NCBI RefSeq assembly: GCF_024713975.1
Contig: NC_091108.1
Span: forward strand, 4,207,001 to 4,271,000
From: Paralichthys olivaceus
Taxonomy: Eukaryota; Chordata; Actinopteri; Pleuronectiformes; Paralichthyidae
Direction: 5' to 3'
DNA: 64,000 nt
Below, one piece after another: positions 20,501 to 23,500 of this stretch. Under the pieces are notes generated by a model that was given only the letters and a program-made list of their open reading frames with translations, ran no database searches and was not told where the DNA came from. The first letter of the stretch is position 1; each line of letters begins with the position of its first letter. The translations under genes were made by a program, and so were the position numbers.

Positions 20501-23500
20501 AGATTGAGATTATTAAACTAACCTATGTTAAAACATGAGGTTTAGATGTACCTGAGCAGCACTTGGTCTTTTCTCTGGATCCCACCTCAACATGTCTTTC
20601 ATCAGCGTGATCGCCTCGTCGCTGGCGTTGGGGACCAGGGCTCTGAGGCTGGTGGGGATACACTTCGGGAAGCGGAAGTTCATCGAGGAGGCCAGGTTGT
20701 AGCCGTCAGGCCAGTCCGACTGTCGAGAGGAGGAGCGGGACGAGACGACAGGTAGATCGTCTGTGAGTTTGTCAGTCCACATGGATGCGTGACAATATCA
20801 AACACACAATCACAGTAAACATTTCCTTTAGAAAATGTAAAGGGGCTCACCTTCCTCAGCGTTCCCAGCACCTGACAGATCTTGAAGATCTCGTCCACCT
20901 CGCTGTTGCCGGGGAACAGAGGTCCGAGGGTGTACAGCTCCGCCATGATGCAGCCCACGGCCCAGATGTCGATGGGTGAGCTGTAGGAGTTGGACTTGAG
21001 CAGAACTTCTGGGGCCCGATACCTGGAAGAACCACACAGAGAGATTTTTATGGAACATTACGTTCAAGTGTAATTGAACTTTTCATAACTTTGTATTTGT
21101 CAGTTCACTACATTTCAAGGATCATTCACTTTATTTTATTTTATACATTATAGATGTTTGTGTCTTATCTCTCCCTGCAGATAGTGTTATTCTTATTTTC
21201 CCAGGGTTTAATGTCTCTGATCTTTCTGTGTTCTCACAACATTTAGAATATGACATAAAAATATAACAGCACTTTGGATACTTTGGATAATCCAGATGTT
21301 TTATATAGAACTATTCTGCTATCATTGCTCTACTATAAAGAACTACATGATGTGTTGGGTTTTATTTGTAATTTGGTTGAATCAACTATTAAAAAACAAA
21401 AACACACATTTTTACTGAATGCATGAAAGAATTTGTAATTTCTGTCCGACCAGAGGTGAACAATCAACAGATAAGACATATTCTACTGTGTTATTGTCAG
21501 GAAGATTAACATTGACATTGTGAGTATTGGAGGTAGCAGATTAATGCTATTATGTAGGATAAATAGAGGAAATCAGCTTAACGAGCCAAAATAATGACAA
21601 CATTGATTATCCACTGTCTGGTCTGTCTGTTTTCCTGCCTGTCCCCCGAGTGGATTTACTGTACCTCTCCCTTGTCAGCATCAATTACATCCCCTGGTTG
21701 TTTAAATCTTTAATCTTCTAGTCTAATTGATTCTACAGCCGGAGTCACGGTGAGTCAGACGTTAGATTCAGATCAAACGTCCACCTCAGTTTGTGTATTG
21801 TAATTTTTTTAATCTACATGAATTATATGGATACAAACACAATTTCAAAAACAGTCTCACCATCTCGTGGACACATAATCAGTGTAAGGCGGCTGGGAGC
21901 GGATTTCCCTTGCTAGTCCAAAGTCTGCAATCTTAACCAGCTCTGGACCCATGCAGAGCAAATTCTCCGGCTTCATATCACGATGGAAATACCCTGAAAA
22001 ACACAAGTCAGTCAAATAAAACTTCCACGACTAGAACAACCACTACAATTTATACTGCAACAGAATTCATTAAGTGTATCAGAGTTTTTCAGTGTTTAAG
22101 GAAAAGAGAAAGACGGGAGGAGTCTCTTACCGTGTTTATGCACAAATGCTAAACCAGACAACACTTGGAACAGAATGTTCCTTATCTCATTTTCAGAAAA
22201 CATCTTATCTTCCCTGGCAGCAGCAAAGTGGGAAAAGACGAGAGACAGAAAGAAGGAAAGAGGATAAAGAAAATATACACTATGCAAACAATCAAGCCTT
22301 ATTGAAATATCATCAACACCCACATGCACTAAAAACACTGTTGGCTTGTTCCTCTCACAGGAGCACACAGGAGAAGTGAGTCACTTTTGAGAGATGTTTG
22401 GATATGTTGTTTTCTGTTTAGTCCATTCATTCTGTGCATGGAGACACAGCGGACAGCTTTTCAACACAACTCTTTAAAGAAGAGATATTTTCACACGTCT
22501 GTACTGAAAGGCCTCGCTGAAGTCACCTACCATGTTTGTGAACAACGGACAGTCCCTGTAATATCTGAAATGTCATGTTTCTGACGACTGACTCAGGGAA
22601 CAACTTGTTTCTGCAAAAACAAAGACTGACACATTATGACTCAAGCTGACCCAAATAATTCTCACATTCCCGACGCTAATGAAACCCACACGGCAGGATT
22701 ATATCACCGAAATAACTCACATGACTCAATGAAGGTGTAAATGCACACGTAACATGTGCGACGTGTTCTCACCGCTCTTTCATGAGCTGATAGAGGTTTT
22801 CTTTCATGTACTCAAAGACAAAGTAGAGGTGGTCGCTTTCTCTGATGACTTCCTTCAGTTTCACCACGTTAGCATGGTTCAGCTTCTTCAGAGACTGATA
22901 ACACAAAGTATTTATGAGACACGTTTAATATCATAGACACTTTAAACATCACCTCATCTTCTCAGTAATTATGTAAAATGTCCAAAAAGGCTGTCGTGTC
23001 TGAAATCAGCTCTTTCATTCAGCTTGAACAGAAAAACCCCCAACAACAATTGAACATACGTTTTACTTTAATTATGAGCAGATTTTTCTTGAATATTGAA
23101 TTATGTATTACTGTATATATGTAATTGAAGATGAATGGATCAGAAAATAATTACTTATGTTTTAATATGATCATAAAAAAGTAGCTGAGTTGGTGATGTT
23201 TCTGATTTCACAGTATAATTACAAGGGACGTTGTTGTCCTATATTTCAAAATAAAATGTATCATGACCATGAATAATGATGAATCTCACCTTCACTTCTC
23301 TCAGATTCAAACACTCGTCCCATGAATAAAACTTCCTCTTCATCCTGTTGAGAAAGAAGATATTGTCATCATGCTATTGCGAATATTTGAATACAGTCAG
23401 AGTGTGTCTTTACCATGTTCTCTGACTGTGGTAGTAACTAGTACTGGTTTAGAGACTAGTTTCTTCAGTTGTCAGTATTTAAAATAACTGTTTTTATTGA

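Follow-up and report, generated by a model that had tools for sequence, protein, structure and literature searches.

The closest described systems to the exon pair reported here are found in the JNK and FYN kinases. JNK1 and JNK2, which are likewise CMGC kinases, use one of two kinase-domain exons, 7a or 7b, and the choice appears to affect kinase activity (excerpts of PMC8746764). In FYN, tandem-duplicated exons likewise yield two active kinases with different binding, but FYN is a tyrosine kinase and its exons cover the SH2-kinase linker together with the N-terminal portion of the kinase domain (excerpts of PMC9741552). The same account counts 236 human tandem-duplicated exon substitution events in GENCODE v40 and states that more than 90% of the human events have orthologous counterparts in bony fish; the mak pair described below is an event of the same kind. 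Since JNK1, JNK2, and FYN have mutually exclusive exons reaching their kinase domains, this kind of arrangement is already known. The alternative JNK exons occupy a different part of the kinase domain and not alpha-E. MAK, ICK, and CILK1 are absent from the main texts, the only parts covered, of PMC9741552 and PMC5740500, and a literature search that included the peptide string of the second exon (4b, below) found no report of such a pair for MAK. It is quite possible that automatic annotation has placed both exons in fish records.

In humans, variants of MAK cause retinitis pigmentosa. When Mak is lost, axoneme formation stops in zebrafish photoreceptors but axonemes elongate in mouse, which is named as an open puzzle (excerpts of PMC11273301). 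Zebrafish mak, orthologous to the gene studied here, is reported to have 15 exons; its cDNAs have been cloned and gave two isoforms distinguished by exon 14 alone, and the excerpts of that report mention no 4a/4b pair for it (PMC11273301). This cDNA result, with exon 14 alone alternative, is the main result that stands against our reading of the exons described below as an alternative pair. If fish do make two versions of the MAK kinase domain, a rescue with a single cDNA would probe no more than a part of the gene, and the two exons would constitute a natural experiment on the role of the alpha-E region in a ciliary kinase.

The exon pair in the mak kinase domain

The window, the whole stretch of 64,000 nucleotides that was analysed, is C16:4207001-4271000 of the Paralichthys olivaceus genome (588 Mb in 25 contigs). 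Its mak gene has the following features (L004 is the locus of a second mak copy on contig C17, and a slash marks a splice site):

24038..24138, minus strand, mak coding exon 1, 101 nt, MNRYTT...VAIK, with GC donor AG/GCGAGT
23290..23344, minus strand, mak exon 2
22773..22894, minus strand, mak exon 3, ending in a split Arg codon, CG/GTGAG
22531..22610, minus strand, exon 4a, 80 nt, counterpart at L004:4982-5061
22214..22530, minus strand, 4a-4b intron, 317 nt, with one TGCATG
22131..22213, minus strand, exon 4b, 83 nt, counterpart at L004:5471-5553
21861..21993, minus strand, mak exon 5, including ...TDYVSTRW, acceptor CAG/GGTATTT
20851..21022, minus strand, mak exon 6
20552..20719, minus strand, mak exon 7

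The original prediction had placed two homologous exons (80 and 83 nt) within 22131-22610, with good splice sites and the same entry and exit phases, encoding alternative segments that end in HKHG ahead of the HRD loop. The coordinates are exact (4a at 22531-22610, 4b at 22131-22213), and the homology, GT-AG splice sites, equal phases against exons 3 and 5, and HKHG endings hold for both exons; the motifs were also correctly worded, NKLFPES being in window 4a and LAFVHKHG in window 4b. On the minus strand, the borders read TTTTTGCAG/AAACAAG...CATG/GTAGGT for 4a and CTGCTGCCAG/GGAAGAT...CACG/GTAAGA for 4b. Each exon completes the split Arg codon of exon 3 and ends after base 1 of the Gly codon of HKHG, and with either one the reading frame that opens at MNRYTT runs without a stop through exon 7, over 277 aa with 4a and 278 aa with 4b. 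The two encoded segments are identical at 16 residues in the window copy, the exons being 317 nt apart.

That using both exons or neither would break the frame was borne out by computation in both mak copies. Counting residues from the start of exon 3, the window copy meets an early stop after 77 with both exons and after 45 with neither, and the C17 copy at 101 and 102, respectively. As is asked of tandem exons, 4a and 4b are adjacent and homologous, of similar length and equal phases, with functional-looking splice sites, and their both and neither forms are non-productive in each of the two copies. Only one splice site in the seven introns read is odd, namely the exon 1 donor, which is GC (AG/GCGAGT, window 24033-24040); the C17 copy has AG/GTGAGG in its place.

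The gene matches Pkinase, with K33, HRD, DFG, and TDY all kept, and is nearest to MAK; the name mak was given from the resemblance to MAK sequence and from the tfap2 gene beside the C17 copy. The two isoforms are similar as kinases, scoring 242.8 and 245.8 bits against Pkinase, and judged by sequence either choice would give a complete CMGC kinase that is probably active. The alternative segment begins at residue 94 and, aligned with CDK2, spans the end of helix alpha-D through alpha-E, stopping just before HRD. The Thr of TDY is residue 157 with 4a and 158 with 4b.

In zebrafish Mak, TDY is numbered 157-159 and KR 32-33 (excerpts of PMC11273301). At face value, the TDY numbering in those excerpts would correspond to 4a length, but the KR numbering is one off the true 33-34, so that the numbering may, if anything, speak against 4b in that cDNA. 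Mouse Mak and Ick are both reported to have Thr-157 (excerpts of PMC11412320). This is the position that 4a gives here, which makes the mouse kinases, as numbered in those excerpts, of 4a length. No 4b is known in mammals. Zebrafish Mak may contain a 4b-like string, which was not counted as evidence.

A second mak copy, a cilk1-like gene, and their surroundings

A genome-wide DNA search with the 480-base stretch spanning the pair returned the stretch itself and two further places, on C17 and C14, each of which matches exon 4a. The C17 locus is a second mak: coding exon 1 starts at 2412 and is followed by exons 2 and 3, by 4a and 4b as listed above, and by exon 5, with order and lengths as in the window. 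The C14 locus (L005) is cilk1-like and has one 4a-type exon at 4516-4595; no 4b was found in this gene, where a gap of 83 nt to the next exon leaves no room for one. A protein search with 4b plus exon 5, in which 150 of 349 candidates were scored, gave at least 80% identity at the C16, C17, and C14 loci only, the next best being 54%. Over the 4b part, identity in this search was 100% on C16, 86% on C17, and 54-59% for three 4a-type exons. The pair is present in two of the two mak copies of this genome and is not present in the cilk1-like gene. The reading of the locus as a mutually exclusive homologous mak pair, exclusive at least by reading frame, is upheld, with the amendment that this genome has two mak copies, of which the window holds one.

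Some 20 kb from the cilk1-like locus there are elovl-family matches, in keeping with the CILK1-ELOVL5 neighbourhood. The two mak copies also vary in the exon after exon 7, in which the C17 copy has a long His/Gln repeat run (L004:8620-8740, CAT and CAG repeats) and the window copy a shorter Gln run.

On C17, about 22 kb separate exon 4a from a tfap2 gene, and the only gcm match is at C17:17.457 Mb. At C17:17.439 Mb there is a gnal-like exon (72% over 36 residues), with similar matches on C6 (73%) and C2 (64%), and it is not proven to be gnal. In the window, the gene adjoining mak is on the plus strand and opens near 27.84 kb; we read this gene, from about 27841, as a putative gnal. The putative gnal has an extra-long first exon (MGLCYSLRPRLFGDL...) and stands head to head with mak, about 3.7 kb apart. 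In zebrafish, tfap2a, tmem14ca, mak, gcm2, elovl2, gnal, mppe1, and dlgap1b lie in one interval (excerpts of PMC11273301). The neighbourhood suggests a duplicated block, the simplest account being one block doubled in the teleost genome duplication, followed by losses and by a rearrangement on C17. The pair predates the split of the two mak copies, and that split probably took place at the teleost genome duplication. As the same pair is found in an anciently duplicated second copy, selection has probably maintained the choice between the exons over a very long span.

Constraint on the exons and competing readings

Between the two mak copies, nucleotide identity is 65/80 in 4a and 64/83 in 4b; in the 4a-4b intron the best ungapped 83-base pairing has only 43/83 identical. 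With the split codons completed, 21 of 87 bases and 3 of 29 residues differ in 4b; in 4a, the differences number 17 of 84 bases and 7 of 28 residues. When equal numbers of base changes were placed at random, so few residue changes were seen in 0 of 20,000 runs for 4b (mean expected, 13.5) and in 275 of 20,000 for 4a (mean expected, 11.1); with a no-stop requirement the counts were 0 and 188 of 20,000. The controls behaved like the pair (exon 3, 0/20,000; exons 5-7, 0/3,000).

Across exons 5-7, 75 of 157 third positions differ between the copies, with dN about 0.10 and dS 1.6-2.0. For exon 3 dS is 0.39-0.80, and for 4a it is 0.90-0.99, with an NG86 dN/dS of 0.12/0.90; for 4b the NG86 dN is 0.06 and dS is beyond estimation. 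As dS is uneven between exons, the term "saturated" is not true everywhere, though the split is still deep. YN00 returned no value in 12 of the 14 comparisons and NG86 no dS in nine, and because these values are mostly missing we gave the counts and the simulation more weight than dN/dS.

The small number of residue changes, set against the deep divergence of the copies and the dissimilar intron, argues that selection has acted on the protein encoded by each exon since before the two copies separated. Constraint on 4b as protein is clear and that on 4a is moderate, as measured between two gene copies of one genome; the comparison with the C17 copy, which took in the dN/dS that the original prediction had proposed, points to purifying selection on both exons, weaker for 4a. 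At a probability of roughly 0.7, we read 4a and 4b as a tandem-duplicated, mutually exclusive pair that was fixed before the mak copies separated, each exon giving a probably active kinase with a retuned alpha-D/alpha-E surface.

Other readings make different use of the same comparisons. One of the exons could be an unused relic, most likely window 4a, in which case the window copy would make a 4b kinase only and the C17 copy would keep both. Window 4a is the most changed of its type, differing from C17 4a at 7 residues and from the cilk1 exon at 8, when the latter two differ at 5, and it carries a change from F to V near its HKHG end. Its splice sites, frame, and phases are nevertheless all intact, and its residue changes fall below random expectation (275/20,000). 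The window mak copy, moreover, evolves faster overall, its exons 5-7 differing from cilk1 at 31 residues and those of the C17 copy at 20. We consider a relic unlikely.

A pair that serves mainly as an off-switch for the gene, through regulated unproductive splicing, would account for the early stops that arise from both exons and from neither in both copies, but we judge it to be very unlikely, since 4b is kept as protein (3/29 residues over 21 base changes) and completes a full kinase domain, which a poison exon does not need. That both exons recur in the C17 copy, unchanged in length and order, is more than chance would give. That the similarity is nevertheless fortuitous, or that an exon was duplicated recently and separately in each mak copy, is hardly credible given this agreement and the pattern of identities: 26/29 residues between the two 4b exons and 21/28 between the two 4a exons, but only 16-17 between 4a and 4b.

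The choice between the exons and the surface they encode

In the tandem-duplicated pair that we favour, both 4a and 4b would be spliced into mRNA, and RNAs with both or neither would be lost through their early stops. Because 4a-4b introns of 317 and 409 nt permit the joining of both exons, exclusivity would need only the reading frame and the decay of mis-spliced RNA. Two other sources of exclusivity found no support. For steric exclusion, the introns have these lengths and the AG-free zones before 4b start some 250 and 283 nt away from the 4a donor; for U2/U12 incompatibility, both 4a and 4b are GT-AG and have an ordinary U2 look by eye.

The choice may instead be set by RNA-binding proteins acting on the 4a-4b intron. 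The AG-free pyrimidine-rich stretch before 4b is 64 nt long in the window and 124 nt in the C17 copy, and that in eight other introns is 13-54 nt. A long stretch of this type suits control by a repressor such as PTB. The window 4a-4b intron has a single Rbfox element, TGCATG, and the six other introns inspected have none; the C17 copy has two in its 4a-4b intron, and intron 1 (at 3528) and the 4b-5 intron (at 5843) each have a further one. In the whole of L004, both strands counted, there are 15 against 8.9 expected, a number reached by 12 of 200 shuffles. Shuffled 4a-4b introns contain at least one TGCATG in 13.5% (window) and 18.4% (C17) of cases, and at least two in 1.8% (C17). As nine motifs were looked at and chance can give these levels, the Rbfox element is a weak lead.

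Mouse photoreceptors are described as being without RBFOX, and RBFOX activates exons from downstream sites (excerpts of PMC4991804). A tentative and rather doubtful extension would make the pair an ancient MAK switch, older than the teleost duplication and lost from or never present in mammals, which swaps a docking surface between cell types, TGCATG favouring 4a in Rbfox neurons and 4b being used in photoreceptors. Such a switch, if true, might be part of the reason why losing Mak affects photoreceptor axonemes in opposite ways in zebrafish and mouse.

At eight alignment columns 4b departs from both 4a and the cilk1 exon, through one inserted Glu and the changes L to M, P to S, S to N, V/A to E, I to V, Q to S, and S/T to A/V. 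MAP kinases bind docking motifs in a groove next to where alpha-E begins (in ERK2, near residues 116-123 and 133). Several of the separating columns fall on the equivalents of these docking places, which would favour a change in docking or partners; 4b would alter this surface and shift the choice of partner or substrate more than catalysis. In the same terms, 4b may be a derived specialisation marked by the extra Glu, Pro to Ser, Val/Ala to Glu, and Gln to Ser.

Outside comparisons bear on which version is older. In the alignment with CDK2, Leu stands opposite the second Glu of the 4b motif SENE, the Ser before GL faces Gln, and the Ser after MF faces a Pro that 4a also has. CDK2, an outsider, aligns gap-free against 4b, and loop length is therefore uninformative on this point. 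A search for relatives gave five distant kinases (34-39% identity) in viral contigs; in other genome contigs, at least 556 of 584 stretches were related, and the best of the 80 listed was a MAK-like sequence, L035, at 64%. The other 79 listed had 39-63% identity and bacterial titles, and no other animal mak was reached among the matches listed from viral and genome contigs. L035 has the Pro and is without the inserted residue, and it shares 11 residues with 4b and 11-12 with 4a.

Leaving the inserted residue aside, 4b differs from 4a at 11-12 residues, and the cilk1 exon differs from 4a at 5-8. From the P, V/A, and Q columns and the cilk1-like gene, we take 4b and not 4a to be the probable derived form, a conclusion held with fair rather than high confidence. 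The pair may be older than the MAK-CILK1 split, or 4b may have changed fast early on, the 28 compared residues being compatible with either.

L035 itself (L035:4800-5490, LFCL01000018.1, titled as a Parcubacteria MAG) is a MAK-like, eukaryote-looking kinase inside a bacterial bin. Of the 266 codons in its frame, 10 are stops; all five TGA stand at Arg of the fish MAK (HRD, TRW, LARE, and two more), and one of the four TAG stands at a fish MAK Gln. These stops may mean that the genetic code is unusual or that a decayed copy underwent C-to-T change, and the contig may be chimeric. Elsewhere in the window, near-identical repeated units of several kb each lie at 1424-7013 and 9007-12614, and on the minus strand they carry coiled-coil-like frames of 466 (5616-7013) and 487 residues (11154-12614).
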